Below, piece by piece: positions 2,768 to 46,556 of a stretch of 64,000 nt of DNA. The notes under the pieces were generated by a model. It was not told where the DNA came from. It worked only from the letters and a program-made list of their open reading frames with translations, and made no database searches. How positions within the stretch are numbered: the first letter of the stretch is position 1; each line of letters starts with the position of its first letter. Source of the stretch: Phellopilus nigrolimitatus (Eukaryota > Basidiomycota > Agaricomycetes > Hymenochaetales > Hymenochaetaceae); contig JAJOHG010000041.1 of NCBI GenBank assembly GCA_021029095.1, positions 217,643 through 281,642 of the forward strand. The letters are read 5' to 3'. The position numbers and the translations under genes were made by a program.

Positions 2768-3186
2768 AACTCATTCCTTCTATTGTTTCAGGTTTGTACA
2801 TGTAGTGTAGGTAGTAGGTAGTATATTATTGATGAAGGAACACCGGCTTAGCAAAATATATAATACAAAAATATGCACTATTTACTCCGGTGAATTATGC
2901 TCCGGAAGCCGGCAGTTGGTCATCTCCTACAATTCGTTTCTGGATATTGAGGGCAAACGAAAAACGAGGTGTAATGAACGACTATCCTATTTCATTCTAT
3001 ATTCTTGTATGGAATCCTCAATACGGTACCAAGAACATATTTGCCTTGCACCGTCGGTCAAGCAAATGAGACACCGATATATCCATCGGGATGCTTTACT
3101 TTGTAATGCGCATGGTACAGATTATAAATTCGACAAACTCTGCTGTTCTCTCTTTTCTTCTTCCTTCGACCGGGCAGTCATAATAG
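2768..3186. other. non-coding, diverged flank of the inverted repeat
   Basis: No convincing gene. The last part (about 3110-3186) still matches, with indels, the sequence outside the other inverted-repeat arm near 30540-30610. It therefore looks like older duplicated sequence that has diverged further than the core repeat. Confidence 0.4.
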
Positions 3187-4272
3187 CTTCCGAGAACGGC
3201 AGAAGATGTCAGTACTTAATTTCAGGAGCGTACTGCGAGCGGCAAATAACACACCATGAGATGACAGCAAGAGCCGTAAGGGTCCAAGTCAGACATAGGA
3301 GTCTTGCGATGCCACACGGCATCCTCGGAGGCCCAGGAGGCTGACGCCGCTGACTGCGCAAAGCTAGACAGCGGCTTGCTTCGACTGGACACATCCGAGC
3401 AGCGCCAACTTCCGCGCAGCAGACATGTCTGCCACCCCGCCGACAGCGCACAGCTGGACGGGGCTGACACCATCGGTCTAGCTACATTACGGAAGTCGAG
3501 GGCTGGCTCCGTACGACGTGAACTTCCGCGGCTATTCGCCAGCAGACCTGTCCGCCTCCGCTCCGTTGGCGGCCGAAGCCGGGCGGAGCTGAGACCACAT
3601 CGGAATGCCACATTATGGAAGTTGAGAGGTCGCCCAAGTCGACGGACGGCGAAACACAAGGGTCTTGATTTGTCGTAACATGAATACAGCGAGGAGTGAT
3701 AGGTGGAGTATGGGAGAAGGACTCGGACAGGGTACTGCTAGGCGAGTATGTGTCTGAGAAGTGAAGATATTAGTGGCAAGGAGGTATGCCGCCAAATGGC
3801 TACTCACATTCAAGAAGCAGCATCGTCATTCAGCCATAAAAATGGGCCGCAAGAGTAGAAGGGTAATTTTCGACGACGAGATGGTCGCATTGGGTGATCA
3901 TGGTGGTATGCGCTGGTTAGGCTGACGGTAGTTAGGTGGCACACACTCTGCTCAATGGGACGTCAGGGAAGCTGCGATGAGTGGAGGAGAGCTGCTTACC
4001 TGGATTAATGAGCGGCATACGGTGGAGTCCTCATGCTGAGGTAGGAGTTTTTCTCGCAGAAGAGGTGGTGGTAGGAGGGAAAGAGAGGCTGACGATGGAG
4101 GGCGCGAAGGGACGCGACTTTATGCGGTCCAAGACAAAGTTCGAACTCCGACACAGCACGTGATCATCTTGACCATATTCTCGGGACGGGTATGACGCAC
4201 TGCAGATCCTTCGGCTGGATGCTCTTCAGTTGCAAACACCAAATTCGCTACTTCTTCAGCCGCAATCTTTCT
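3187..4272 (+). repeat. 1,086-bp inverted repeat, arm 1
   Basis: This block matches 29452-30537 in reverse complement. Paired positions always sum to 33724 across the whole block, so there are no net indels, and only a few substitutions were seen when reading corresponding frames. It contains no recognisable gene: the open frames on both strands are short and low in recognisable motifs. I see no terminal repeats, target duplication or transposase, so its nature (unclassified repeat or segmental duplication) is open. Confidence 0.8.
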
Positions 4273-4989
4273 ACTTTGGTAGTGGGCCATTGCTGCGCAT
4301 GGCAGGCTACGATTCCTTTTCTTTTTCTAAATCCTTACCATTAGCTTTAGGGTCCATCCGCGGGAGCAGCCGTCACGTGTGCCGAGGCGTATTTCGTGTC
4401 CGTCGCAGACGTCGTCCCGATTTCCCGTGGTGGTGGCGGAGAGGAGGCGGCGGCAACAATCATAGTGAGTGCTCACAGGAACATCAATTTTATCTCCTTT
4501 CGACGTGACAGGCTTTCTTACACTTGCCAGCTGCACGACACCGCTCAGCGCCTCCGGTACGCGCTCTTCCTCCTCCCGCCGCTCCTGTGCCTTCTCCCGC
4601 CGTCGCGCGCACGCGCGACCAGTTCGCTCGCCGCGCTGCTGCAGATGCTCGTGCAGGCCGAGCGCACGCGCGCGCACGCCTGCAGCTCCTGTGGCTTGAC
4701 TCCGCCGCGCGGTCCGTGCACCTGCGCTGCGCGGGGCGAGCAAGTGGTGGTGGAGCAGGCAGCGCGCGGAGGGTGCTTGCGCACTAGGCGACTGGGAAGT
4801 GCGAGAGATGGCGGTAAAGTTGGGCTTGGACGTGGGTGGGGTGCAGATGATAGTGCAGTGGGAGAGGGTGCGTTGAGGGCGGGAGTAAGAGCAGGAGTGG
4901 TGCTCTCCTGGGCGGCTTTCGCCCGAGCGAATATAAGTAGAGGGACAACCGCTCGTTCCCCACCAGCCCCCAAGTCCGCCCAGCATCGA
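4273..4989. other. GC-rich stretch without an assignable gene
   Basis: Several overlapping frames are open on both strands (for example 4396-5154 plus and 4327-5205 minus), as expected of GC-rich DNA. None shows a domain or family motif. It may include decayed exons of the remnant that follows. I see no other feature. Confidence 0.3.
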
Positions 4990-5899: not shown

Positions 5900-6065
5900 A
5901 GCCAATGGATCGCGGGTCCCGTGGGTCACCCACCATACCGGTCCTGACCCAGACCCACAGGTTATGAATGACCCACATATCCGGGTTATGCATGGGTCTA
6001 GATATGCATTTTGAAAATCTCATACCCGTGCAAATGAGTCCGGGTCTACCCGCGCATATCCCCTA
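5900..6065 (-). mobile_element. solitary hAT right-end fragment
   Basis: This is the same subterminal sequence as the right ends at 24743-24918 and 25329-25500: CCGTGGGTCA-type inverted blocks, a TTTTGAAAATCTCATACCCG stretch, and a terminus ending in ATCCCCTA (TAGGGGAT read inwards). The opposite end was not found upstream, so this is a deletion remnant or the partner end has been lost. The sequence just outside (6066-6122) looks like a coding exon, so the element probably sat inside a gene. Confidence 0.55.
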
Positions 6066-6122
6066 GCTCGATATCATCGCGAGTAAAATAAAGCTAGGAC
6101 ATTGAAAATGCGGGGCCTACGC
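6066..6122 (+). pseudogene. exon of an unknown gene, split by the 5.1-kb element
   Basis: Reading 6066-6122 and jumping over the inserted element to 11230 gives one continuous coding frame: DIENAGPTPEQF, then AEIYSSDPGLDREFKQ. The repeated 7 bp CCTACGC sits exactly at the junction. The second half lies at about 11230-11300. I do not recognise the protein. The exon is strong evidence that the 5.1-kb element inserted into a gene. Confidence 0.5.
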
Positions 6123-7365
6123 CACTGCTGCCAGCCAACTGATTCATTCAAGGCCAGCAAATGCTTGCTTGCGCAAAGTGTATGAAGCCCAGGTATAGCT
6201 GGTTAACTTTGGGCCAGCTACGCTACAGGCATTGAATAATAGGTATACCAGCTGCTTGTGCTTTATTAGGCAGTGTTAGCTAATTAAACTACTTTATAAT
6301 ACGACACTGGGTATTATTAAATGTATATGCCTCGCAGAGAATTTTTTGCTTTTAAATATTGATCTAATCACTAATCTTTGCTTCTTTAGTATTAGACTGC
6401 AGCCCATCAAACATCTGACAGGTGGCCTCGGCCTTGGCCTATGGAGGGTGATGCACTGCCGCCCTTTTCCCATTATATAATTCAAACTCTAATCAGTGCC
6501 GCCGCCCGCCGTTACCGCCGCACTTACTTATAGGACTGCTGACAGGCCGCTCATCGTCGCCCGCCCTCGCGCTCACTGTTCTCAATGTTGTGCTCTTTTT
6601 TTTTCTTCTTTTTTTTACTTCAATTTTTTTTGTACATTATAATCTAGCTACCGGACATAACTAAAATGAAAGGATATACTTATTTACTTTGAAAAATGAC
6701 TGGGGGAGCAGTCGAGGAGCGGCAAACAAAAAGAAAAGAAAAAAAAGGCGGAGCGGCTCCTTTTGCCGATCGCCCGCCTGCTTTCCCGTCCTGTGCATCG
6801 TTTCCGGTCCGCTCGTTCCCTAGCTGCCTGTGTGCGTACCCCGGAGGGCTTGCTCGCCCGTTCGCGGTATGCGGCGCACCGTTCCGCATTTCCGTGCTTC
6901 CTATCCAACTGCCACCCCCACGTTCCTTAGCCAGCCCGCTGTATCTCGCTAGCGCGGAGGTTTGCTCGTCCCCGCTGAGTAGTCAGAGATTGGCAACGCC
7001 AACTCACACATCCACATAAAAGCACTCACCAAAATTCGGCCGCGCCGCCACGGTGAGGCAGCGGCAGCGCGAGGCTCACTCTCTTGCGGAGATCACGCGC
7101 GAGGACGAGCGCGGGGAGCTCAGTTGAGGCGAACGCGGAGACGGATAAGCGGCGCTGGTCCTGGCTGACCTTGACGTGCAAGCGTCACCAGCGCTTGGTC
7201 GATGCGAGCAGGCACTCGCTGCGGTACGTCACAGCAGAAAGCCATACATCCTACTTTATTTCCTGCTGCACCCCTCGGCCCTTAGTCCACCCGTAAGGAG
7301 GTGTTTCGAGTGAGGATCGGTCAAAGCGAAAGCAAGGTACGAATAAACAGCTGAAAGTCGAAGCA

Positions 7366-8036
7366 ATCAGGAAGTGACTTTCGTAGCGGCAGCATCGGTA
7401 GCAGCTGCGACGGCAGGACTGACCATTTTGCTGTCCTTGTAACGCACAAGAGGGGGAGGGTACATATGCGGCGGCCTTCGCGCAAATGGACACGGACAAC
7501 TGTGTACCAAGAAGTCACCATAGAAAGGAGAATGAATGAGACACGAGACGCACCGTTCGAGGGAATGGTGCACGAGACGCAGAAGGCGACCTTGAGGTAG
7601 AGTTTCAGGGATCACGTATTCTACTCAAAAATCAGGCGAGGAATCCTCGAAAGTGAAGTTTCGGCTTACCCTAATAGACCGACATCTCTGAGATGTCACA
7701 GACAGCGGCGGACTCGACCATGTCGCGCACAGTGAAGCACCTGATGGCCTTATCCTTGGGAACACAGCGCGAGCAGTTCGAGCCGCGCATGAGCCTGTTG
7801 CAGGGGCCATCGAGGGACACAAGGCGAAGACGTCGCGGATGATTGCAGGTTCGACCATGTCGCGCACAGTAAAGCGCTTGATGGCCTTGTTCTTGGGTAC
7901 ACAGCGCGAGCAGTTCGAGTAGCGCATGAACCTGGCGTGGAAGCCGGTGGGGGCAAGATAAAGAGACAGAGTTATAAGCAGAGACGATGAGCACGACGAG
8001 CACGACGACGTTGACGACGAGCACGAAACTCAACAT
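7366..8036 (-). pseudogene. RPS26: captured RPS26 gene fragment (copy 1)
   Basis: The minus strand encodes broken pieces of 40S ribosomal protein eS26, a small-subunit protein near the mRNA exit. Visible blocks are [51 protein letters not shown] and, in a shifted frame, KMVSPAVAAATDAA. The CVPKDKAI exon occurs twice in tandem (about 7680-7800 and 7815-7927), the second time as [18 protein letters not shown]. Frames shift between blocks and the N-terminus is missing, so it is a non-functional captured fragment. Splice-like borders are still present, so genomic DNA rather than mRNA was captured. Confidence 0.8.
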
Positions 8037-9149
8037 GTCACGAGTGACTTACCGGAATAGGTCATCACTTTCGTCCAAATAAAGTATGTTTTGGATCAAA
8101 TGATATTGATGGGCTCGCCACAGCTACAAAACATAGCTGTAGCGCTCCAACCTCTCAATTATAAATCGCAATTAATTTACTTTATAATTATACATCATAT
8201 AATCTTTCTTTTTAGAAAAAATTAGATCTTTGTAAATGCTATATATCAAGTTATTAACCCGATAATGCAAATATCGAGTTTTCCTTCGTGTTGGCTTTGT
8301 AGTGCTATATACAGGGTTCCCGAAGCACTGTAAGTATTTAGTATAGGTTTCTAGTACATACTTCTTCGAAATTGGAAAGTTTAAGTACCTGAGAAAGCCT
8401 ACATCTTGTGTATAATAGCTTTTAGTATGGGATACACTGTATGCAGCAGTTTCGGGTCTGTTAGATTTCTCCTACATCTGAAAGGGCATTTAATCACATA
8501 GATGCTATTCATACAAGACTATATAGTATATTTATATCATTGAAAAAATCCCTGAGCTGTTTAAGAGCTGGACAGTTGCACTGGAAGGCAAAGATGCTGC
8601 AAAAAGCTGTTTTCCAAGCTGTGGCAAATTCTGAATATTTTATGGGCACATAAAAATTATTTTGTTGTTATCTTGAAGCACTTTTAATACACACAATGAC
8701 CCCTATATTTTTTGTTTGGGAGTTGTCTATGAAATTACAAGGTGTCAAGGCTTCGAACTGGTAAGACAGAACTGGTTTCAAGAAAAGCAAACCGATCTTC
8801 AGCTTTGAACGTACCTGTTTCCTAGATCTACATATTCTAGACCCTCATCCAGTAATCAAGGTACATTAAAAGTTTATAAACATGTTAAAGACATGTGTCA
8901 TAAAGTTTGGGCCCGTTTGGCCCAGCCGATCGAGGTCGAAAATTGTTTTAGTGAAAAGTAGCACAGATTCCGTTTGTACGTTAACTAAATGCGTTATCTG
9001 TCAGCATCGTACCCGTCCTGGAATGTATAAATTTTTGAGGAGATAAAGAGCAGGTGTTAAAATATAACTACACGGTTTTAAGCCAATCCGTTGCGTGTAT
9101 GAATTGCAAAAAACGAAACAGTTGTGCGCTAACGCGAGCGCTTACGAGC

Positions 9150-10050
9150 GCTTGCGCGGTTCGACACAACTTTCGCACGGTTGAACTTGCGTGCTCGCTG
9201 GGATCGACTTGCTCAACAACGTCGTTCACGACATCCAGGACCGTAAATAGCTCAAGGTAAGCGTTCAAACACTCAGGGGGCCCATACATAACTAACTTTC
9301 TTGCTTTTATATCTATTCTATGTATTCAGGAGTCGCTAACACAGCTGTCGACGACGATAAGGCACGGGTGCACCGACTTCGCCGCGACGAACCTCAAAGG
9401 TACTACGCGCCCGCCGCGCCGGAGCCCGTGCAGCACAAGACACTCCCGCAAGCGCTCGGGGGTGCAGCGACGACCACGGCGCAGGCACTGCAAAGCACGA
9501 GCACCGGGCCCGATGAGAAGACGACGACATACCAAGCGGGCCTCTGGGACAGGGTGCGTGTTCTTTACATCTTTCTCTCCTCTCTTTTCTTTCTTATCTT
9601 AGTCTGCTTGAAAGACGCGCGTCTCACGCAAGACAGGACGATCCGCACGCACTTCCTGCGTCTCTGGAAGGCGACACTCATCAACGTAATGGCGGGCACG
9701 CTCAAGGTGTTGCAGGCGGCCTCCGCATCGCGGCCCGAACACGACACGGCGAAGCAGACGTTCAAAACCGTGGTCCCGCGAGGCAGGAACAATCGCGGCT
9801 CGAAGTCGAGAACGCCGAGGACGACCTCGTGCAGAAGACGGAGGTTGCGACCACCTGAGAACGCGCTTCCAAGCTCGATTTAATCGATGGTACGTCCTCG
9901 CGCTCGATGCCGGACTGAATATGCCCTTATTGCAGCCTGAACCCCTGAAGAACCTGAACAAACTCGTCGGGCTCAATTCGCCTACCACGCGTCCGCTGCC
10001 GAGGCGCTCTCTGCCACAATCGCGTGCGCGCTTGCGCGTCGACACACAAA
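9150..10050 (+). pseudogene. captured BAR-domain protein gene fragment (copy 1)
   Basis: Degenerate exons resemble the fungal Gvp36/endophilin-like BAR proteins that bind curved Golgi and endocytic membranes. Recognisable blocks in changing frames are HKTLPQALGGAATTTA, DARLTQDRTIRTHFLRLWKA, then RLEVENAEDDLVQKTEVATT and PEPLKNLNKLV followed by RAQFAYHASAAEALSATI. A GTGCGTG donor follows the WDR at 9555. Frame changes and stops show that it is broken. The family call comes from the pattern of the helical BAR segment and has not been searched. Confidence 0.6.
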
Positions 10051-10162
10051 TCTGTCACGACGAGCAGCTGCGGCTCCTTAAACGAGCGCGTGAGGTCACC
10101 TCCAACGCGCACATCGCCCTCGTCTGTCTCCCCGTTGCATACCGATAGCACCGACTCCGCCA

Positions 10163-10494
10163 ATCTCTCTTGCGGATGCGGCACGCTCGGCGTCCAAAGC
10201 GAAGCGCAAGGTCATCTTCAAACGCGCAGAGTCGTACGTGAAGAGCTATGTTTCGAAGGGGAAGGAGGAGGTGCGCCTGAAGCGCGCGGCCCGCGCTGCG
10301 GGCGACTTCTACGTCCCGGCAGAGCCGAAAGTGTACTTCGTTGACCGTATCCGCGGTATCAACGAAATCGCACCGAAGCCACGTAAGTTTCTGCAGCTCC
10401 TCTGCCTGCTCCAGATCAACAACGGTGTTTTCGTAAAGGTCACGAAGGCGACGCAGCAGATGCTCCGTCTCGTCGAGCCTTACATTACTTACGG
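10163..10494 (+). pseudogene. RPL7: captured RPL7 exon (copy 1)
   Basis: This is a clean exon of 60S ribosomal protein uL30 (L7): [63 protein letters not shown] and [10 protein letters not shown]. It ends exactly at a GT donor, where the next exon of a real RPL7 gene would be joined, but that exon is absent. There is no start codon of its own, and it is fused upstream to the BAR fragment. It is the best-preserved of the three captured pieces, with no internal stop in this exon, which fits a recent capture. Confidence 0.85.
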
Positions 10495-11231
10495 GTGCGC
10501 AATTCTTCTCTTGCGCGGGTGCGGCGTGCTCGGATACTCTGGCCTTCCGAATCCCTTCTCCCCCTTTCGTAATTAATGCGCGCCGCTTGCTCCTTGCAAG
10601 TGGCAACTCTTGTTTAATTTAATCTCACATATAATTACCCCCCCCTCCCTCCCCCATATGGTTTTAAATAGAGAAAAAAGAAGAGTGCAAGAACAATAGA
10701 ATAGACAGTAATAACTACAGTATGCAAAATATACTAATTTATTTGATGAGTTTTTGGTTGAGCTACGCGAAGGCGGCGGCAAACAGTGAGCGGGAGGCGG
10801 GATGTCTGCTTATGTGATCCCGACGAATCGGCGCGCGATGGATAAATAAATAGAAGCATCCAAATGTATTTGTAATTAGTCCCCTGCCCCGATGGCAATG
10901 ATATCACATCAATCAAACTTCAGGGCACAATCATAGAAGCTCCCTGTAAACTATAATCATGACACCCCTGATATTTTTAGTTTTTTGATAATAAAGAGAA
11001 TTAAATTAAGTACTATTTAAAAAAGTGGCCCCTAGGCTGCTCGGATATCATTAAAAAACCCAAAATCGCTTTTTTCGGCCTGCCAGATAGCTGACCAAGC
11101 CTGCTACACAGTGAATTCAATCCCGGCAGCAACGCTGGCTTGAATTATTCAATGAATGCAGGGCCTCATACACTTTTGCCATGCTAAGCATTCGCTGGTT
11201 GGTATTGAATTATCTTCCTGGTAGGACTGCC

Positions 11232-11522
11232 TACGCCGGAGCAGTTCGCAGAGATCTACAGTAGCGATCCCGGACTCGATAGAGAATTCAAGCAAGTGAC
11301 GCATTTTCATTCTTTTCGCAGCAATTTTCTTACTATTTCCATAGAACCCCACACTCAATACGAGAACAAGTCGGTACCTACCAAAAGTCTCTTTTCCTCC
11401 GTTGCGACCAGAGACAACACTCGAACCAGCCGATCATCTATTCCTATGACGTACTACTCGTTTTATTTCTTCTCAGCAAAGCGAGTGGTACGTCATAAGG
11501 TACAGTGCACGTGATAATACCC
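11232..11522. other. short non-coding spacer
   Basis: The first ~70 bp finish the split exon described at 6066-6122. The rest, up to the ATG of the Ca2+-ATPase relic at 11523, shows no gene and could hold its former promoter. I see no other feature. Confidence 0.3.
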
Positions 11523-16129: not shown

Positions 16130-16351
16130 ACATGCGTACCGAGCGTACCGAGTCTCTTCACGTCGCGTCGCACAAGCTTGTTGTGTCTTGTGGTGGTGGG
16201 TAATGCTGCTGTGTCTTTTTTCTTCGGTGAAGTCCGTAACTGGTGAGTTGGCCGCTGCTGAGCAGCCGAAATAAATATCTGTATAAATACCAGTCTAATA
16301 TCTACGTTTGTTTTGCCCGTGTGCGTTTCGCTCTCATAATCCCCCCGCTTC
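16130..16351. promoter_or_regulatory. probable former upstream region of the hAT transposase
   Basis: When the 5.1-kb element is removed, this stretch joins directly to CGACTTCTGGCTCTCCAACA and the transposase ATG. It contains AATAAATATCTGTATAAATA (16270-16290), which is TATA-like. I infer that it is the promoter/5' UTR now separated from its gene by 5.1 kb. Confidence 0.4.
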
Positions 16352-17594
16352 CACTGCTGCCAGCCAACTGATTCATTCAAGGCCAGCAAATGCTTGCTTG
16401 CGCAAAGTGTATGAAGCCCAGGTATAGCTGGTTAACTTTGGGCCAGCTACGCTACAGGCATTGAATAATAGGTATACCAGCTGCTTGTGCTTTATTAGGC
16501 AGTGTTAGCTAATTAAACTACTTTATAATACGACACTGGGTATTATTAAATGTATATGCCTCGCAGAGAATTTTTTGCTTTTAAATATTGATCTAATCAC
16601 TAATCTTTGCTTCTTTAGTATTAGACTGCAGCCCATCAAACATCTGACAGGTGGCCTCGGCCTTGGCCTATGGAGGGTGATGCACTGCCGCCCTTTTCCC
16701 ATTATATAATTCAAACTCTAATCAGTGCCGCCGCCCGCCGTTACCGCCGCACTTACTTATAGGACTGCTGACAGGCCGCTCATCGTCGCCCGCCCTCGCG
16801 CTCACTGTTCTCAATGTTGTGCTCTTTTTTTTTCTTCTTTTTTTTACTTCAATTTTTTTTGTACATTATAATCTAGCTACCGGACATAACTAAAATGAAA
16901 GGATATACTTATTTACTTTGAAAAATGACTGGGGGAGCAGTCGAGGAGCGGCAAACAAAAAGAAAAGAAAAAAAAGGCGGAGCGGCTCCTTTTGCCGATC
17001 GCCCGCCTGCTTTCCCGTCCTGTGCATCGTTTCCGGTCCGCTCGTTCCCTAGCTGCCTGTGTGCGTACCCCGGAGGGCTTGCTCGCCCGTTCGCGGTATG
17101 CGGCGCACCGTTCCGCATTTCCGTGCTTCCTATCCAACTGCCACCCCCACGTTCCTTAGCCAGCCCGCTGTATCTCGCTAGCGCGGAGGTTTGCTCGTCC
17201 CCGCTGAGTAGTCAGAGATTGGCAACGCCAACTCACACATCCACATAAAAGCACTCACCAAAATTCGGCCGCGCCGCCACGGTGAGGCAGCGGCAGCGCG
17301 AGGCTCACTCTCTTGCGGAGATCACGCGCGAGGACGAGCGCGGGGAGCTCAGTTGAGGCGAACGCGGAGACGGATAAGCGGCGCTGGTCCTGGCTGACCT
17401 TGACGTGCAAGCGTCACCAGCGCTTGGTCGATGCGAGCAGGCACTCGCTGCGGTACGTCACAGCAGAAAGCCATACATCCTACTTTATTTCCTGCTGCAC
17501 CCCTCGGCCCTTAGTCCACCCGTAAGGAGGTGTTTCGAGTGAGGATCGGTCAAAGCGAAAGCAAGGTACGAATAAACAGCTGAAAGTCGAAGCA

Positions 17595-18265
17595 ATCAGG
17601 AAGTGACTTTCGTAGCGGCAGCATCGGTAGCAGCTGCGACGGCAGGACTGACCATTTTGCTGTCCTTGTAACGCACAAGAGGGGGAGGGTACATATGCGG
17701 CGGCCTTCGCGCAAATGGACACGGACAACTGTGTACCAAGAAGTCACCATAGAAAGGAGAATGAATGAGACACGAGACGCACCGTTCGAGGGAATGGTGC
17801 ACGAGACGCAGAAGGCGACCTTGAGGTAGAGTTTCAGGGATCACGTATTCTACTCAAAAATCAGGCGAGGAATCCTCGAAAGTGAAGTTTCGGCTTACCC
17901 TAATAGACCGACATCTCTGAGATGTCACAGACAGCGGCGGACTCGACCATGTCGCGCACAGTGAAGCACCTGATGGCCTTATCCTTGGGAACACAGCGCG
18001 AGCAGTTCGAGCCGCGCATGAGCCTGTTGCAGGGGCCATCGAGGGACACAAGGCGAAGACGTCGCGGATGATTGCAGGTTCGACCATGTCGCGCACAGTA
18101 AAGCGCTTGATGGCCTTGTTCTTGGGTACACAGCGCGAGCAGTTCGAGTAGCGCATGAACCTGGCGTGGAAGCCGGTGGGGGCAAGATAAAGAGACAGAG
18201 TTATAAGCAGAGACGATGAGCACGACGAGCACGACGACGTTGACGACGAGCACGAAACTCAACAT
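17595..18265 (-). pseudogene. RPS26: captured RPS26 gene fragment (copy 2)
   Basis: Counterpart of 7366-8036. It shows the same broken eS26 exons, including the tandemly doubled CVPK(D/N)KAI exon and the same frameshifts. I noticed no differences from copy 1. Confidence 0.8.
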
Positions 18266-19378
18266 GTCACGAGTGACTTACCGGAATAGGTCATCACTTT
18301 CGTCCAAATAAAGTATGTTTTGGATCAAATGATATTGATGGGCTCGCCACAGCTACAAAACATAGCTGTAGCGCTCCAACCTCTCAATTATAAATCGCAA
18401 TTAATTTACTTTATAATTATACATCATATAATCTTTCTTTTTAGAAAAAATTAGATCTTTGTAAATGCTATATATCAAGTTATTAACCCGATAATGCAAA
18501 TATCGAGTTTTCCTTCGTGTTGGCTTTGTAGTGCTATATACAGGGTTCCCGAAGCACTGTAAGTATTTAGTATAGGTTTCTAGTACATACTTCTTCGAAA
18601 TTGGAAAGTTTAAGTACCTGAGAAAGCCTACATCTTGTGTATAATAGCTTTTAGTATGGGATACACTGTATGCAGCAGTTTCGGGTCTGTTAGATTTCTC
18701 CTACATCTGAAAGGGCATTTAATCACATAGATGCTATTCATACAAGACTATATAGTATATTTATATCATTGAAAAAATCCCTGAGCTGTTTAAGAGCTGG
18801 ACAGTTGCACTGGAAGGCAAAGATGCTGCAAAAAGCTGTTTTCCAAGCTGTGGCAAATTCTGAATATTTTATGGGCACATAAAAATTATTTTGTTGTTAT
18901 CTTGAAGCACTTTTAATACACACAATGACCCCTATATTTTTTGTTTGGGAGTTGTCTATGAAATTACAAGGTGTCAAGGCTTCGAACTGGTAAGACAGAA
19001 CTGGTTTCAAGAAAAGCAAACCGATCTTCAGCTTTGAACGTACCTGTTTCCTAGATCTACATATTCTAGACCCTCATCCAGTAATCAAGGTACATTAAAA
19101 GTTTATAAACATGTTAAAGACATGTGTCATAAAGTTTGGGCCCGTTTGGCCCAGCCGATCGAGGTCGAAAATTGTTTTAGTGAAAAGTAGCACAGATTCC
19201 GTTTGTACGTTAACTAAATGCGTTATCTGTCAGCATCGTACCCGTCCTGGAATGTATAAATTTTTGAGGAGATAAAGAGCAGGTGTTAAAATATAACTAC
19301 ACGGTTTTAAGCCAATCCGTTGCGTGTATGAATTGCAAAAAACGAAACAGTTGTGCGCTAACGCGAGCGCTTACGAGC

Positions 19379-20279
19379 GCTTGCGCGGTTCGACACAACT
19401 TTCGCACGGTTGAACTTGCGTGCTCGCTGGGATCGACTTGCTCAACAACGTCGTTCACGACATCCAGGACCGTAAATAGCTCAAGGTAAGCGTTCAAACA
19501 CTCAGGGGGCCCATACATAACTAACTTTCTTGCTTTTATATCTATTCTATGTATTCAGGAGTCGCTAACACAGCTGTCGACGACGATAAGGCACGGGTGC
19601 ACCGACTTCGCCGCGACGAACCTCAAAGGTACTACGCGCCCGCCGCGCCGGAGCCCGTGCAGCACAAGACACTCCCGCAAGCGCTCGGGGGTGCAGCGAC
19701 GACCACGGCGCAGGCACTGCAAAGCACGAGCACCGGGCCCGATGAGAAGACGACGACATACCAAGCGGGCCTCTGGGACAGGGTGCGTGTTCTTTACATC
19801 TTTCTCTCCTCTCTTTTCTTTCTTATCTTAGTCTGCTTGAAAGACGCGCGTCTCACGCAAGACAGGACGATCCGCACGCACTTCCTGCGTCTCTGGAAGG
19901 CGACACTCATCAACGTAATGGCGGGCACGCTCAAGGTGTTGCAGGCGGCCTCCGCATCGCGGCCCGAACACGACACGGCGAAGCAGACGTTCAAAACCGT
20001 GGTCCCGCGAGGCAGGAACAATCGCGGCTCGAAGTCGAGAACGCCGAGGACGACCTCGTGCAGAAGACGGAGGTTGCGACCACCTGAGAACGCGCTTCCA
20101 AGCTCGATTTAATCGATGGTACGTCCTCGCGCTCGATGCCGGACTGAATATGCCCTTATTGCAGCCTGAACCCCTGAAGAACCTGAACAAACTCGTCGGG
20201 CTCAATTCGCCTACCACGCGTCCGCTGCCGAGGCGCTCTCTGCCACAATCGCGTGCGCGCTTGCGCGTCGACACACAAA
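19379..20279 (+). pseudogene. captured BAR-domain protein gene fragment (copy 2)
   Basis: Counterpart of 9150-10050, with the same Gvp36/endophilin-like blocks and the same frame breaks. Confidence 0.6.
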
Positions 20280-20391
20280 TCTGTCACGACGAGCAGCTGC
20301 GGCTCCTTAAACGAGCGCGTGAGGTCACCTCCAACGCGCACATCGCCCTCGTCTGTCTCCCCGTTGCATACCGATAGCACCGACTCCGCCA

Positions 20392-20723
20392 ATCTCTCTT
20401 GCGGATGCGGCACGCTCGGCGTCCAAAGCGAAGCGCAAGGTCATCTTCAAACGCGCAGAGTCGTACGTGAAGAGCTATGTTTCGAAGGGGAAGGAGGAGG
20501 TGCGCCTGAAGCGCGCGGCCCGCGCTGCGGGCGACTTCTACGTCCCGGCAGAGCCGAAAGTGTACTTCGTTGACCGTATCCGCGGTATCAACGAAATCGC
20601 ACCGAAGCCACGTAAGTTTCTGCAGCTCCTCTGCCTGCTCCAGATCAACAACGGTGTTTTCGTAAAGGTCACGAAGGCGACGCAGCAGATGCTCCGTCTC
20701 GTCGAGCCTTACATTACTTACGG
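20392..20723 (+). pseudogene. RPL7: captured RPL7 exon (copy 2)
   Basis: Counterpart of 10163-10494. It is the same uL30 exon ending at the same GT donor after EPYITYG. Confidence 0.85.
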
Positions 20724-21484
20724 GTGCGCAATTCTTCTCTTGCGCGGGTGCGGCGTGCTCGGATACTCTGGCCTTCCGAATCCCTTCTCCCCCTTTCGTA
20801 ATTAATGCGCGCCGCTTGCTCCTTGCAAGTGGCAACTCTTGTTTAATTTAATCTCACATATAATTACCCCCCCCTCCCTCCCCCATATGGTTTTAAATAG
20901 AGAAAAAAGAAGAGTGCAAGAACAATAGAATAGACAGTAATAACTACAGTATGCAAAATATACTAATTTATTTGATGAGTTTTTGGTTGAGCTACGCGAA
21001 GGCGGCGGCAAACAGTGAGCGGGAGGCGGGATGTCTGCTTATGTGATCCCGACGAATCGGCGCGCGATGGATAAATAAATAGAAGCATCCAAATGTATTT
21101 GTAATTAGTCCCCTGCCCCGATGGCAATGATATCACATCAATCAAACTTCAGGGCACAATCATAGAAGCTCCCTGTAAACTATAATCATGACACCCCTGA
21201 TATTTTTAGTTTTTTGATAATAAAGAGAATTAAATTAAGTACTATTTAAAAAAGTGGCCCCTAGGCTGCTCGGATATCATTAAAAAACCCAAAATCGCTT
21301 TTTTCGGCCTGCCAGATAGCTGACCAAGCCTGCTACACAGTGAATTCAATCCCGGCAGCAACGCTGGCTTGAATTATTCAATGAATGCAGGGCCTCATAC
21401 ACTTTTGCCATGCTAAGCATTCGCTGGTTGGTATTGAATTATCTTCCTGGTAGGACTGCCGCTTCGACTTCTGGCTCTCCAACA

Positions 21485-29350: not shown

Positions 29351-29451
29351 GTTGCGAACGAAATGCGATTCGAAACTGGGTGATGTTACATTCGATGCCG
29401 ACATACAGTATCCACAACGACGACCCATCTGCCATCTTTTGACAAAACTTT
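29351..29451 (-). repeat. 101-bp inverted repeat, right arm
   Basis: Partner of 28411-28511. If single-stranded, the two arms could form a hairpin around the F-box relic. Confidence 0.8.
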
Positions 29452-30537
29452 AGAAAGATTGCGGCTGAAGAAGTAGCGAATTTGGTGTTTGCAACTGAAG
29501 AGCATCCAGCCGAAGGATCTGCAGTGCGTCATACCCGTCCCGAGAATATGGTCAAGATGATCACGTGCTGTGTCGGAGTTCGAACTTTGTCTTGGACCGC
29601 ATAAAGTCGCGTCCCTTCGCGCCCTCCATCGTCAGCCTCTCTTTCCCTCCTACCACCACCTCTTCTGCGAGAAAAACTCCTACCTCAGCATGAGGACTCC
29701 ACCGTATGCCACTCATTAATCCAGGTAAGCAGCTCTCCTCCACTCATCGCAGCTTCCCTGACGTCCCATTGAGCAGAGTGTGTGCCACCTAACTACCGTC
29801 AGCCTAACCAGCGCATACCACCATGATCACCCAATGCGACCATCTCGTCGTCGAAAATTACCCTTCTACTCTTGCGGCCCATTTTTATGGCTGAATGACG
29901 ATGCTGCTTCTTGAATGTGAGTAGCCATTTGGCGGCATACCTCCTTGCCACTAATATCTTCACTTCTCAGACACATACTCGCCTAGCAGTACCCTGTCCG
30001 AGTCCTTCTCCCATACTCCACCTATCACTCCTCGCTGTATTCATGTTACGACAAATCAAGACCCTTGTGTTTCGCCGTCCGTCGACTTGGGCGACCTCTC
30101 AACTTCCATAATGTGGCATTCCGATGTGGTCTCAGCTCCGCCCGGCTTCGGCCGCCAACGGAGCGGAGGCGGACAGGTCTGCTGGCGAATAGCCGCGGAA
30201 GTTCACGTCGTACGGAGCCAGCCCTCGACTTCCGTAATGTAGCTAGACCGATGGTGTCAGCCCCGTCCAGCTGTGCGCTGTCGGCGGGGTGGCAGACATG
30301 TCTGCTGCGCGGAAGTTGGCGCTGCTCGGATGTGTCCAGTCGAAGCAAGCCGCTGTCTAGCTTCGCGCAGTCAGCGGCGTCAGCCTCCTGGGCCTCCGAG
30401 GATGCCGTGTGGCATTGCAAGACTCCTATGTCTGACTTGGACCCTTACGGCTCTTGCTGTCATCTCATGGTGTGTTATTTGCCGCTCGCAGTACGCTCCT
30501 GAAATTAAGTACTGACATCTTCTGCCGTTCTCGGAAG
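29452..30537 (-). repeat. 1,086-bp inverted repeat, arm 2
   Basis: Partner of 3187-4272. The arms are inverted and 25 kb apart, enclosing the whole transposon region. Beyond 30537 the similarity continues weakly for about 70 bp. Confidence 0.8.
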
Positions 30538-30959
30538 TATTACTGCCCGGTCGAAGGAAGAAGAAAGAAGCGAATTGCAGAGTTTATGTCGAATTTTGGC
30601 ATAATTTGTACCGCATATACATAGAGTAAAGCACCCCGATGTATTCAATATCTTGTCTTCGATTCTAAAAGCTCTGCAGCCGATGGCTGAAATCACTCTA
30701 CAGCCAAATAGTTTTAGTGTCACATTGAAGACTTCACATACAAAAAATAGAATATTGGAATGGGGTAGTTCGAATGCATGTCGAAGAACTGAACTGGAAT
30801 GTTGAAGCGCATAAGTTCCATATTTCACTCCCAAGTAAAGCCTTTTGTGTTTTTGACAATCAAGCAAGCAACACTTTAATTTGTCGGCCTGACCAGAGGA
30901 GCAGGTCTTCTAAAGCAATGCTCAGCTTTTACCCGGAGACGTTCTGTTGCTCCCTAAAG
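30538..30959. other. intergenic, nothing clear
   Basis: A 120-codon minus-strand frame (30505-30867) spans this interval but has no family motif and resembles, weakly, the diverged flank near 3110-3186. I do not call a gene. Confidence 0.3.
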
Positions 30960-33470: not shown

Positions 33471-35307
33471 CTACATCCACCTGTAGTTGTGCGTGTACCT
33501 GACATACGGCACCTTCGCCTGCATCCATGGCAGCGTGGCTCGGTCGAATGCCTTGCAATCATAGAGAATCAGCGTCCGTATCGGGAGCTGAAGCGGCGGC
33601 GGTACAACCATCGTAGATGTAGAAGGTAGATCTGCGCCTGAATCTCCTTCCGACGGCGCAGGTGGAAGATGAGCCTTGACAAGCCGCATGATGGGTGTCA
33701 CTTTCAGATCCACGGTTCCAGTAAAATCCAAGTGTTGCAAACGCGGACAGCAGATCGGTCGCTCGTTTGTCTCCAATTTCTCATCGGAAAAGGGACTTGA
33801 AGCCGGCTCCGCCAGCGCCGTAAGGATAGTGTTGACTGCCTCTGTCTCTGTGCATTGACAATAAGCAAAGCGCTGTAGCTTAAGCGCAGATTGGAGGAGT
33901 GGTATAAGTACGACCTGGCGTTCGAGACTGCAACGAGTAAATCGCAGGTCCATGAGGTTCGGCAGGGGCTGACCCACTAGCATGTCGAGGTAGCGCCTGT
34001 CCTCAACCCGGGACCCTGCCCTTTCTATGCTAAGTGTCCCAAGATTCGGGAAGCGGAGACAGCGGAGGTATAAGCTGGTGCTTCCGGGGACGACGAGATG
34101 GAGGTAACGGAGGTGAACAAGTTCAATGGGCTCGGGAATCTCAACCAACTCTGGCGCAAGGAAATCAACCGAAACAAGGATGAGTGTTTCGAGAAGAGGA
34201 TTTTGCGCAAGGACTGGGAGAACATCCCCGGGCATAATTTTGCATTTGTGGATTTCGAGCGTCCTCAAGACCGTACATTGAAGAAGGCACTTCCATGAAA
34301 CGCTACTCCAACATGCATTCCGTAATACGAGCGAAGATAAGCGCGTCAAATCCAAATTTCCAGAGGAGTTCTTATCGAAATAGAACGCGCCTTCATCCGA
34401 CAAGTCCACCTCTAACTCCTGCAGCTGAAGCTGGGCAAGTATGCCTGGGGGAAGAACAAAACAGAGTGACATAATTTCACGGGGTAAGTGCACTTTCAAG
34501 CTCTCGAGCTTTGTCCAAAAGCTCTCCGACGCATAGCGCAAAACGTTCGGTAGCGCATCGAAATCGAAACCTCTGCGAATCTCCAGGCTCGAGAGCGTTC
34601 CTTTGGACCGTTGCAACCACGCATCGACCTTATTGCCACTCGTCTCCCGTGTGAGTACCAATCGCTGCCACAGCGAAGTCATGTTGAGGATGATTTCCCG
34701 CCAGTTTCGGCAGACGCGCGTGAGCGCGAGCGTCTTCGCGCTACTTTTATCTGCTACGAGGGTTAATATATCGCCGCATATCTCGACCGGTAATTTGGAG
34801 AAGAAGCAGGGTGGAGATTCCAACTCTTTGAGCGCCCGTTGTTTCAGAGCATCGAGCTCAACGCGCCTTTCCTCGTCCGAGAGTTCTAGTCGCTCTAGGG
34901 CAAGCTCCAGCATTTCTAGTGAAGCTTCAGGTTTTTTAATTTGAGCTAAAAGATGCGCTGATTGTGCATATCCCTATATGGCGTAGAAGTTTGAGAAAAA
35001 CAAAACATTGGACAATCGGAGACATTGGACAACCTGCCATAAACCCGGCACGAGATCTATGACCTTCTTGAAGTCCTCTAGCGCATCTTCCGGTCGGTCT
35101 AACATCTCGAACACAGCTGCCCTGTAGACATAAACAGACACTTCTTTGCTATTTTCTAATATCGCCTGTTCATCCGTGGTGAGAACGAGCTCAACAGTGG
35201 ACGGATGTGATGTGAACACGGACCTCATTAAATTCTATTAAGGCCTCCTCGTACTTTCCCTGCCCGAACATGTTGAAGCCTTGCTCGAAAGAATCATTCC
35301 ATGACAT
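33471..35307 (-). CDS. TPR + F-box/LRR protein (copy 1, intact)
   Basis: Exons 35307-35224, 35165-35034 and 34973-33471, with introns of 58 and 60 nt in phase; 572 residues. The first two exons encode a tetratricopeptide unit (EQGFNMFGQGKYEEALIEFN, AILENSKEVSVYVYRAAVFE, RPEDALEDFKKVIDLVPG). These are followed by a coiled segment (LELALERLELSDEERRVELD), an F-box (FFSKLPVEICGDILTLVADK, then TRVCRNWREIILNMTSLWQR) and leucine-rich repeats to the C-terminus. This layout is a typical mushroom F-box family; the TPR part would bind partners and the F-box Skp1. It is transcribed divergently from the TRP4 pseudogene at 35678. No frame damage was seen. Confidence 0.85.
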
Positions 35308-39240: not shown

Positions 39241-40404
39241 TTAAGCCCAGTCCCTGGGGTTCTTCAATATCTCGAGCAGCTTGTGCTCCTCCGTGTTTTC
39301 CTCCGTGCCCATGTCACTCATGTATTCCCAACGCGCGGTTTCCGGAAGGCTCATGAGGATGCTCTCGACGCGCGCACCGGGCGTCATCAGGCCGAACTTG
39401 GTCCCGCGGTCGTAGACGAGGTTGAACTCGACGTAGCGCCCGCGGCGCAGGAGCTGCCAGCGGCGCATGTGCTCGTCGAACGGAGTGTCTATGCGCCGCG
39501 CGAGGACCGGCACGTACGACGGCACAAACGCGTCCCCGCACGCGCGCACGAACGCGAAGATCTCGTCCGCCGTGCGCGGGCGCACCGCGTCATCGGGCAG
39601 CCGCGTGTGCGGCGCGGGCGAGAGGTCGTCGAAGAAGATACCGCCGACGCCGCGCCTCTCTCCGCGGTGCACGATGAGGAAGTATTCGTCGCACCATGCT
39701 TTGAAGGCCGGATGCAGCGCCGCGCCGTGCGGCGCGCACGCGGCCTTGAGCGTGCCGTGAAAGTGGCGCGCGTCCTCCTCGAAGAAGTACGAAGGGGTGA
39801 GGTCCGCGCCGCCGCCGAACCACCACGCGAGGGGCGGAGCGGCGGCGGATCCTTCTTCGGACGCGAGCGCGTCGGGGTTTTCGAGCTCGAAGTAGCGGTA
39901 GTTGGCGTGCACGGTGGGCGCGGAGGGGTTGCGGGGGTGGATGACGAGGCTGATGCCGGCGGCGAAGAAGGGGAGGCTGCGCGGGTCGGCGGGGTCGAAC
40001 GGGATGGACGCGTGGTCGGCGACCATCTGGCGGATGGCGGCGGGCGGGAGCATGCCGTACACGATGGAGATGTTAACGCCGGCCTTCTCGAGGGCGGACT
40101 GGGAGAGGGCGGAGGGCGCGGCGAAGACGCAGGAGGTGCCCTGGCCGCCCTGCGGGCGGACCCAGGCGTCGCGCTTGAACTTGGGCGCGTCCGGATCGAG
40201 CGCCTCGAGGGCGCTGACGATGGAGTCCTGCAGCGAGAGAATGTATTCGGACATGCGGTCGCGCATGGGCTTGGGGTCGGCGGAGACGGACATGGTCGTC
40301 GTCGGGGACGTCTGCTCGCTGGACTGGGAACGTCGACGGCCTAAGTTTACTGATTGTTTCGAGCGTCGGCGAGGGCGCGAGCCGCCGAGAACTGCCGAGC
40401 TCAA
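39241..40404 (-). CDS. HEM13: coproporphyrinogen III oxidase
   Basis: Oxygen-dependent enzyme of haem synthesis that decarboxylates coproporphyrinogen III to protoporphyrinogen IX. A single uninterrupted frame of 387 codons, full length for the family. Motifs in order: VRPQGGQGTSCVFA, SLVIHPRNPSAPTVHANYRY, AWWFGGGADLTPSYFFEEDA, DEYFLIVHRGERRGVGGIFF, RRGRYVEFNLVYDRGTKFGL and ETARWEYMSDM. The N-terminus (RPRRRSKQSVNLGRRRSQSS) is basic and could be a leader. A second in-frame start (MSVSADPKP, near 40293) would give a shorter protein. No introns, unlike its neighbours. It converges with the MFS gene; 145 bp separate the stops. Confidence 0.93.
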   Translation of the reverse strand: MSSAVLGGSRPRRRSKQSVNLGRRRSQSSEQTSPTTTMSVSADPKPMRDRMSEYILSLQDSIVSALEALDPDAPKFKRDAWVRPQGGQGTSCVFAAPSALSQSALEKAGVNISIVYGMLPPAAIRQMVADHASIPFDPADPRSLPFFAAGISLVIHPRNPSAPTVHANYRYFELENPDALASEEGSAAAPPLAWWFGGGADLTPSYFFEEDARHFHGTLKAACAPHGAALHPAFKAWCDEYFLIVHRGERRGVGGIFFDDLSPAPHTRLPDDAVRPRTADEIFAFVRACGDAFVPSYVPVLARRIDTPFDEHMRRWQLLRRGRYVEFNLVYDRGTKFGLMTPGARVESILMSLPETARWEYMSDMGTEENTEEHKLLEILKNPRDWA

Positions 40405-41042
40405 TCCGGCTCTTTCCTCACATCTGTCTTTTATTTTATCTCCATTATTACTTGGCCAAATATTCTGATCTTTTGAAGTATATACGGAGTACTATAGACA
40501 AGCAATACCATGAAGAGCGAGCAGAGAAAGAGAAACACTGAAATATGTGGCTCGGTGCGGCTGTGTAACCGACCACACCGGTTCACCTCACTTTTGAGTG
40601 CCTGTAGTACTCATATATACTCTCGTGTAACAACATTTGGTACCAAGTCTGTCCTCATCCTCTCCTGACCATCTGCCGTGACTAACATCGTCTCATTTCA
40701 CAACTGTGCCGGCGAGGCATTCCGCGAGGATTCGTCCCGCGTCATCTTCCAAGATGCTCGCAAGGCTAACTATTGATACTAACGACACCATGCTCAACTC
40801 GCAAGCTGCCTTCATGTTTGTGCATTGGTCGCTGAGAGCGGCGAACGAATGCTTTTTCTGACCGAATCAACATGGCAGTTTTGATAATAGTTTTATTCAG
40901 AGCAGAGTCAGGAAGAGATCCACTGACTCGGATTCGTCAGAGAGAAAATGCACGTGGATGCTCGAGTCGCGCGATTCCCTTATGTAATACTAATAGCAAC
41001 ACGTGTGCCACCCATCTCCTCGATCCTTGCTCGTCAGCGACC
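40405..41042. promoter_or_regulatory. divergent intergenic region HEM13 / F-box copy 2
   Basis: It contains, from 40872, a block starting ACATGGCAGTTTTGA that recurs upstream of the other two TPR-F-box copies (35485 minus, 44487 plus). No gene of its own is seen. Confidence 0.4.
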
Positions 41043-44679: not shown

Positions 44680-46556
44680 ATGTCATGGAATGATACCTTT
44701 GAGCGAGGCTTGAACTTGTTCAGACAGGGAAAGTATGAGGAGGCCTTAATCGAATTCAATGAGGTCCGTGTTCACATCTGTCGATTACGGTGAGCCGGAT
44801 CTCACCATGGTTGAACAGGCAATACTAGAAAATAGCAAAGAAAAGTCTGTTTATGACTCCAGGGCAGATTTTTTCGAGGAACTGGACCGACCAGTAGATG
44901 CGCCGACGGACTCCAAGACGGTCATAGATCTCGCGCCGGGTTTATGGGAGGTTGTACGATTTCTCCGTTTGCCCAGTGTCTTTGACTTAACCCTTTATCT
45001 CGCAGAGATACACACGATCAGCGCGTCTTTTTATTCAAATAAAGCAGCCTGAAGCTTCACTAAAAATGGCGGGACTTGCCCTAGAGCGACTAAAGGGCTC
45101 GGACGAGAAGAGGCGCTTCGAGTTCGATGCTCTGAAACAACAGGCGCTCAAAGACTTAGAACCTCCACCCTGCTTCTTCTCCGAAATACCAACCGAGATC
45201 TGTAGCGATATATTTGTCTTTGTAGCAGATGAAAGCAGCGCAGACACGCTCGCGCTCACGCATGTCTGCCGAAGCTGGCGGGAAATCACCCTCAACATGC
45301 CCTCACTATGGCAGCGACTGGTACTCACACAGGAGACGAGTGGCAAGAAGGTTGATGCGTGGCTGCAACGGTCCAAAGGAACTCTCACGAGTTTGGAAAT
45401 TTGCAAAGGTTTCGATTTCGATGAGCAGCCGAACATTTTACGCTATGCGTCAGATTGTTTTTGGGCGAAGCTCGAGAGCCTGAAAGTGCACTTACCCCGT
45501 GAAATTGGTTCACTCAGTCTAGCTCTTCCCTCAGGCGCTCTTCCCCAGCTTCAGCTACAGGCGTTCGAAGTGGACTTCTCGGATGAAAGTGCGTTCGAAT
45601 TTGCAGAGACTTACTTAGGAGATTTAGATTTGACGCACTTATCTTCGCTCGAATTATGGAGTGTTGGTTGGATTGGCGATTCATGGGAGTGCCTTCTCCC
45701 ATGTACTCATTTGAGGACGCTCCAAATCGAAGCAGACATGCTCATGCCCTGGGATATTCTTCCAGTCCTTGCGCAAAATCCTTTTCTCGAGATACTCCTA
45801 ATCGCTTCGTCTGAAACGTTGTCGCAAGAGCCGACTGAGATCCCCGAGCTTATTGAACTCGTTCATCTCCGTCACCTCTGCTTGCGCGTCCCCCAAAGCA
45901 CCACTGTATACTTCCGCTGCCTCCGCTTCCCGAATCTTGAAGGGCTTAACATTATTTGTGGAGGGTCAGAGGATGATGACAGGCGCTACCTTGATGTGCT
46001 AGTGGGCCAGTCCCTGCCGAACCTTACGAGTCTACGACTTAGCTTCTGCGGTCTCGAGTGCCCGGACGTACTTGTAACACTCCTCCGATCAAAGCTTTGG
46101 TTGGAGTGCTTTATTTTTAAACAGTGCTTAAAAGCAGAAGCAGTCAACACTGTCCTTACGGCGCTGGCGGAGCCGGCTCCAATTTCCTCTTTCCAAGAAA
46201 GGTCGGAAACAAACGAGCAGTCGGTCTGCTGTCCACGCTTGCAGTATCTGGATCTCACGGGATCCACGGATCTGAAAGCGGGACCCATCATGCAGCTTGT
46301 GAAGGCGCACCTTCCTCCTGCGGATGTGCCGTCGGAAGGAGATGCAGGTTCAGACCTGCCTTCTGCATCTACGGGGATTGTACCGCTGTCGCTTCAGCTC
46401 CCGATACAGACACTGATTCTCGATGATTGCGAGTCATTCGATACAAGCGCGCTGCCGTGGTTACGGGCGAATGTACCGCGGGTCAGCTTCAAGATGACGC
46501 CGCAGGTCAAGGAAGCGAAGGAAGTGTATTACAGTCGATATACTTTTTGGATGTAG
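44680..46556 (+). CDS. TPR + F-box/LRR protein (copy 3, intact)
   Basis: Exons 44680-44763, 44819-44950 and 45006-46556 give 588 residues; both introns are in phase and match the positions in copy 1. TPR part: ERGLNLFRQGKYEEALIEFN, EELDRPVDAPTDSKTVIDLA. F-box: FFSEIPTEICSDIFVFVADE, LALTHVCRSWREITLNMPSL. Leucine-rich repeats follow (LRTLQIEADMLMPWDILPVL, FPNLEGLNIICGGSEDDDRR, CCPRLQYLDLTGSTDLKAGP). A putative SCF substrate receptor; the target is unknown. Kozak context AACCATGTC. The upstream region (44230-44679) carries the shared promoter-like blocks. The start was chosen because all three paralogues share the M-S-x-N start. Confidence 0.87.

Follow-up and report, generated by a model that had tools for sequence, protein, structure and literature searches.

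A probable Pack-type Kyakuja transposon without a transposase carries fragments of three host genes in Phellopilus nigrolimitatus

Here we describe a 5,107-bp DNA transposon that occurs twice in a 64,000-nucleotide stretch of Phellopilus nigrolimitatus DNA (contig JAJOHG010000041.1; the whole stretch is called the window) and that carries fragments of genes for the ribosomal proteins RPS26 and RPL7 and for a BAR_2-domain protein. We consider it likely that it belongs, as a Pack-type element lacking a transposase of its own, to the Kyakuja branch of the KDZ (Kyakuja-Dileera-Zisupton) DNA transposons, presumably moved in trans and carrying captured pieces of genomic genes. Its ends, its target-site duplications, related empty sites, a partner element with the same ends and a KDZ transposase, the host donor genes and the retained introns are all directly observed; so are a gene cassette common to two families with different ends and the fact that the window copies moved recently. 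An earlier sequence-only reading of the window had interpreted the element as a Pack-type DNA transposon without transposase and with a three-gene cargo, which holds, and as hAT-like, which is not supported.

Results

A base-by-base comparison of the two window copies found 0 differences over 5,107 positions. The identical run spans 6122-11231, and the 3 bases beyond the element are a coincidence of the flanks. The ends are imperfectly inverted, with 9 of the first 12 bases matching, and each copy is enclosed by its own exact 7-bp duplication (CCTACGC and CCGCTTC). A genome-wide profile search yielding 73 KDZ matches placed none inside either copy. The sequence-only reading was thus accurate in describing two identical copies of an approximately 5.1-kb element with imperfect inverted ends, a separate flanking duplication for each copy and no transposase. 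Its claim of recent movement is likewise borne out by identical copies with real target-site duplications. The two copies (members of family A, below) and their duplications are as follows.

6123..11229, plus strand: family A pack element copy 1, 5,107 bp (end, duplication and sequence analysis)
16352..21458, plus strand: family A pack element copy 2 (0/5,107 differences to copy 1)
6116..6122, unstranded: target-site duplication CCTACGC, left of copy 1 (flank comparison)
11230..11236, unstranded: target-site duplication CCTACGC, right of copy 1 (flank comparison)
16345..16351, unstranded: target-site duplication CCGCTTC, left of copy 2 (flank comparison)
21459..21465, unstranded: target-site duplication CCGCTTC, right of copy 2 (flank comparison)

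We searched the whole assembly (56,438,583 bases in 635 contigs) with patterns for both element ends, allowing up to 2 mismatches and using reversed patterns as controls. The left-end pattern occurred at 20 sites (18 exact) and the right-end pattern at 17 (16 exact); because the reversed patterns for both ends gave 0 matches in 56.4 Mb, these ends are not chance occurrences. Two end types emerge, family A, to which the window element belongs, and family B. Further copies, for which the earlier reading had proposed such a search, do exist: nine elements have both family A ends (C346 twice, C13, C90, C112:41187, C224 twice, C25 and C168), comprising eight packs with RPS26, BAR_2 and RPL7 fragments and one transposase-bearing element, C168. 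Seven elements have both family B ends (C112:15015, C112:2193809, C53, C114, C212, C390 and C625) and contain a block of RPS26, spacer and BAR, with RPL7 absent; the copies at C53 and C112:2193809 have common flanks and may be one insertion represented twice. All 16 two-ended elements start with CACTG and finish with GGACTG. C54 and C611 have the B-type left end only, sharing just the left 90 bp with family B, and the right end of C611 was not recognised. C624 is a degraded family A copy. Copy numbers from sequence searches, in which the best 40 of 64 candidates were scored, are lower bounds. The left end at C13:709210-709236 (L064), 74% identical to family B over its initial 105 bases, possibly represents a third Kyakuja subfamily.

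Perfect 7-bp duplications flank seven of the nine family A elements and all seven family B elements. Those of the other copies differ in sequence from the ones in the window, as the earlier interpretation of the latter as target duplications requires. The remaining two family A elements form an inverted pair of identical copies at C224:295369-306563. Because their 7-bp flanks match crosswise (GGCACCG and GACTGGT), we infer two ordinary insertions followed by a transposon-mediated inversion through the copies. Empty-site probes were made for 12 insertions by joining 15-80 bases of left flank and 80 of right flank with one target copy, and contiguous related empty sites were recovered for seven (C346 copy 1, C13, C90, C112-A, B_C112a, B_C112b and B_C114). 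For C346 copy 2, C25, C168, B_C390 and B_C625, no empty site was among the matches listed, a result that carries no weight given that 40 of 152 candidates were scored and that some true own-flank matches were absent among them. The sites that lack the element are repeats or alleles, that is, related empty sites rather than proven ancestral alleles. With one target copy at 7 of 12 sites, they favour transposition over the single ancestral locus that the earlier reading had itself raised as an alternative. The target of copy 1 (flanks 6043-6122 and 11237-11316) is itself a repeat, with near-identical uninterrupted copies at C346:16820, C46:226776 and C2:929507.

The transposase-bearing element occupies 16,647 bp at C168:375969-392615, between family A ends and the 7-bp duplication AGCAATA. 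It has in common with the pack 194 bp on the left (88%), 282 bp on the right (92%) and a 32-bp internal match, along with a weak inverted end-to-end match. Over the first 12 bases, the inverted-end match is 9 in C346a, 9 in C168 and 8 in B_C112a. Frames near the right end of C168 match CxC2 (2.2e-37) and KDZ (1.1e-40), a name that reportedly comes from Iyer et al. 2014; none of the 73 KDZ matches genome-wide lies in a pack. The corresponding end regions of copy 1 are the following.

6123..6316, plus strand: left end common to the KDZ-bearing C168 element, 88% (alignment)
10948..11229, plus strand: right end common to the KDZ-bearing C168 element, 92% (alignment)

Passages of Kojima 2025 (PMC12730594) give Kyakuja elements 7-bp duplications and CA..TG ends, and assign 8-bp duplications to Zisupton and one Dileera family. 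Families A and B have 7-bp duplications, not the 8 bp of Zisupton, along with CA..TG termini and, in the same-ended element, KDZ plus a CxC domain. On balance, these features would place the element in Kyakuja and not in hAT, and the earlier hAT-like label gives way to a partner with KDZ and CxC2. Several points weigh against this placement. It draws on the duplications, the termini and the KDZ partner rather than on a transposase tree. Another KDZ match in C168 has a stop, so its transposase may be neither intact nor active. Two Laccaria Kyakuja families are described in passages of the same report (Kojima 2025, PMC12730594) as being without terminal inverted repeats, whereas the ends here are weakly inverted. 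Duplication length alone is also not decisive, because it varies among the KDZ elements of Cryptococcus (8 bp for KDZ1, 4-8 bp for KDZ2 and KDZ3).

A Helitron assignment is ruled out by the partner transposase, the 7-bp duplications and the ends. C25 (11.8 kb) was considered as a transposase-bearing copy and rejected, its extra 6,339 bp looking like a long terminal repeat (LTR) element; this family A copy (C25:21653-33497) contains the LTR-type insert with two 1,439-bp repeats that are 99.5% alike. C54 and C611 were considered as candidate transposase-bearing copies of family B. C54 codes for a protein related to another C168 reading frame (tblastn 1.5e-44), but has no row among the 73 KDZ matches. 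The related minus-strand frames of C168 and C54 (L056 1711-4394, L059 1971-3929) are at most 47% identical over 146 aa and gave no Pfam match in the pieces scanned; perhaps they encode a Kyakuja accessory protein.

Transposon ends and target duplications here enclose host gene fragments and no transposase, the defining features of a Pack-type element. Pfam detects RPL7 (Ribosomal_L30_N/L30) on the plus strand of the element and Ribosomal_S26e in two overlapping minus-strand window frames; these frames hold two copies of an exon, 81% alike. None of the three window frames scanned for the BAR piece gave a Pfam match, but tblastn places the piece on a host gene with BAR_2-scoring exons (PF10455); PF03114 (BAR) was rejected as the captured domain, none of its four rows lying at the captured gene. 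The exons named in the sequence-only reading, of RPS26, a BAR-domain protein and RPL7, are therefore present, and the donor genes for which it had suggested a search persist outside the packs. The RPS26 cargo (element 1175-1675) is 86% identical to the host gene at C629/C229 and has two exons, an intron and an extra exon copy. The BAR_2 cargo (element 3202-3892) has three partial exons with introns and is 80% identical to C179, and the RPL7 cargo is one internal exon, 93% identical to C555/C258. Because introns are retained in the fragments, genomic DNA was captured. The cargo of the window copies is arranged as follows.

7297..7797, minus strand: RPS26 fragment with two exons, the intervening intron and 3' flank; 86% to host C629/C229
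7851..7940, minus strand: second RPS26 exon copy
7941..9323, unstranded: spacer, also in family B
9324..10014, plus strand: BAR_2 fragment, parts of three exons plus introns; 80% to host C179
10189..10511, plus strand: RPL7 internal exon with edges of the flanking intron; 93% to host C555/C258
17526..18026, minus strand: copy 2 RPS26 fragment
19553..20243, plus strand: copy 2 BAR_2 fragment (identical copy)
20418..20740, plus strand: copy 2 RPL7 exon

RPS26 occurs in 15 of 15 packs (14 via Pfam, C25 via tblastn) and RPL7 in all eight family A packs and 0 of 7 family B packs. In the genome-wide profile search, 27 of 31 S26e rows, 8 of 12 L30_N rows and 6 of 8 BAR_2 rows fall in packs; the others (4, 4 and 2) belong to host genes. 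The segment 7057-7296 was rejected as a fourth captured gene, having no Pfam match, even though matches of about 80% to a portion of it exist elsewhere. When a whole B element was used as the query, RPS26 and BAR were the only strong donors outside Kyakuja elements among the matches listed.

The subterminal parts of families A and B can be aligned only over the first 39 bases, and their RPS26-spacer-BAR blocks are approximately 76-80% identical. Judged by eye, the two families share one host position for the BAR edge, and the RPS26 3' flank is longer in A than in B. In a comparison of six sequences, A_C112 proved to be a mosaic: its first 1,625 bases are 92-100% identical to A_C224p, positions 1626-2375 are 92-95% identical to B_C390 (71-85% for the A relatives there), and positions 3001-3625 are 91-94% identical to A_C346a. 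In a 12-row tree of element positions 1840-2500, a single A clade is rejected (p-AU 0.000147 in the approximately unbiased test, with a log-likelihood lower by 108.29), the grouping having been chosen for testing once an earlier tree was known; the five other A rows group with support of 93/94, unstarred. Left out of the trees were A_C346b and A_C224m, each matching a retained copy at every aligned base, A_C168, which lacks the cassette, and B_C53, which occupies the site already represented by B_C112b; A_C624 fell out of the 1840-2500 tree because of its length. The mosaic suggests that cargo was exchanged between the families, by recombination or by template switching during repair. Weighing against such an exchange, the tree of the BAR part is compatible with a monophyletic A (p 0.238), so the claim rests on the spacer, and plain recombination does not predict the identical BAR edge.

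Family A has been mobile over a long time, with its latest movement at the window. Divergence from the window copy is 0 for the C346 copies, 2/5,107 plus a 290-bp insert for C13, 141/5,080 for C90 and approximately 12-13% for C112 and C224. The insert in the C13 copy (C13:554307-559703) has inverted ends at a TA duplication, and we take it to resemble a Tc1/mariner-type miniature inverted-repeat transposable element.

Elsewhere in the window, a coproporphyrinogen oxidase frame (39241-40491) shares 93% identity with its Phellopilus nigrolimitatus counterpart and 83% with the one in Coniferiporia weirii, which makes a member of the Hymenochaetales the likely host. Inverted repeat arms of 1,119 nt at 3155-4273 and 29451-30569, 98% complementary and 25 kb apart, probably belong to another repeat family. 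Two related long frames in opposite orientation, 33471-34973 (minus strand) and 44991-46556 (plus strand), lie within a 78% inverted repeat and look F-box-like by eye.

Discussion

We propose that the pack retains approximately 0.2-0.3 kb of each end of its transposase-bearing relative C168, and that a KDZ transposase acting in trans would excise and insert it, leaving 7-bp duplications. Host genomic pieces may have been captured through repair-associated template switching, with RPL7 probably acquired separately from RPS26 and BAR. The cassette would then have passed between families by repair or recombination.

Two other accounts of the element itself need to be considered. It could be a hAT-type Pack element that a hAT transposase mobilises, its 7-bp duplications resembling those of the hAT7 lineage in rust fungi. 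Passages of PMC6710886 document the capture of a histone gene by hAT elements in ascomycete fungi, and passages of PMC12730594 the presence of hAT7 families with 7-bp duplications in rust fungi. We nevertheless regard this as very improbable: the same-ended partner has KDZ and CxC2, not hAT (no genome search for hAT elements with these ends was made), and hAT duplications are usually 8 bp in the same passages of PMC12730594, compared with 7 bp here. The identity of the window copies, together with some near-identical contig pairs in the assembly (e.g. C229/C629, 99.4%), could also suggest a plain segmental duplication, or an assembly duplicate, of a single locus holding gene fragments. That explanation, which we dismiss as extremely improbable, is at odds with flanks and duplications that differ between copies, with related empty sites for 7 of 12 insertions and with copy divergence that spans 0 to approximately 13%.

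The cargo, too, admits of other explanations. Rather than exchanging it, A and B might each have taken the RPS26-spacer-BAR block from one pre-existing chimeric host locus, which would account for the common BAR edge and for families that have almost nothing in common outside the block. This seems to us somewhat unlikely, since no chimeric locus outside Kyakuja elements was among the matches listed, the host RPS26 and BAR genes are on different contigs, A reaches further than B into the RPS26 flank, and the A_C112 mosaic points to direct exchange. As for function, the captured pieces most likely travel as passengers and serve no purpose as proteins; most of them have broken frames. In the BAR and RPS26 pieces, the reading frames slip, contain stops or have accumulated many amino-acid changes. 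Among six aligned copies, the RPL7 exon is open in C346a, C90 and C224p, and has a stop in A_C25 and a frame break in A_C112, with A_C624 degraded. C346a and C224p differ by 7 synonymous changes (74 sites) and 8 non-synonymous changes (232 sites); differences among packs at amino-acid sites are thus below neutral expectation, a mildly constrained look from small counts. The open frames and this deficit could indicate that the exon is retained as a source of a functional peptide or regulatory RNA, an idea that we consider quite unlikely given the disrupted copies, the damage to RPS26 and BAR and the fact that only one internal exon of RPL7 is carried. It is also unlikely, in our estimation, that both Kyakuja families keep and trade the housekeeping cassette because it benefits the transposon. 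One example of such a benefit is that the element could be costly to silence, because small RNAs directed at the pack would reach the indispensable RPS26 and RPL7 genes as well; the cassette would then be an anti-silencing module shared between families, not accidental filler.

Gene capture by DNA transposons is already known, mostly from animals and plants, and fungi add cases in which a hAT element took up a single gene. The closest relatives of the likely Kyakuja packs, Kyakuja-1_LB and -2_LB, likewise have 7-bp duplications, CA..TG ends and a KDZ transposase (found here in the partner), according to passages of Kojima 2025 (PMC12730594). The same passages report Kyakuja capture of a TET/JBP dioxygenase gene, whereas the cargo of the packs here, which have no transposase, is made up of pieces from three housekeeping genes instead. 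Plant Pack-TYPE elements, as presented in parts of PMC8903248, also pick up and rearrange coding DNA as non-autonomous DNA transposons, but belong to another superfamily and kingdom; here one cassette occurs in two families. Transposon ends also enclose captured DNA in animal Pack-TIRs, for which template switching has been proposed as the capture step in passages of PMC8277862; fungi, KDZ, Zisupton and Kyakuja each occur 0 times in those passages. In Pseudocercospora fijiensis and relatives, a housekeeping gene, histone H3, was similarly amplified by a fungal DNA transposon, but passages of PMC6710886 describe one intronless gene (from a transcript or retrocopy) in hAT elements with 8-bp duplications, whereas introns are kept here. 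Helitrons of Pleurotus ostreatus also carry gene cargo in a mushroom; according to parts of PMC4289320 they are rolling-circle elements without target duplications, unlike the packs, and the authors state that intact copies hold no P. ostreatus gene fragments. Within our open-literature searches, no title or displayed abstract described KDZ-transposon Pack elements that carry several genes.

These data bring together, in one 56-Mb assembly, the transposase-bearing partner, the donors, empty sites, differing capture sets and apparent cargo exchange between families. They also carry a warning for annotation, as most of the S26e and L30_N rows (27/31 and 8/12) sit inside transposons. The debated capture step, template switching in repair, becomes testable from the junctions in this assembly.

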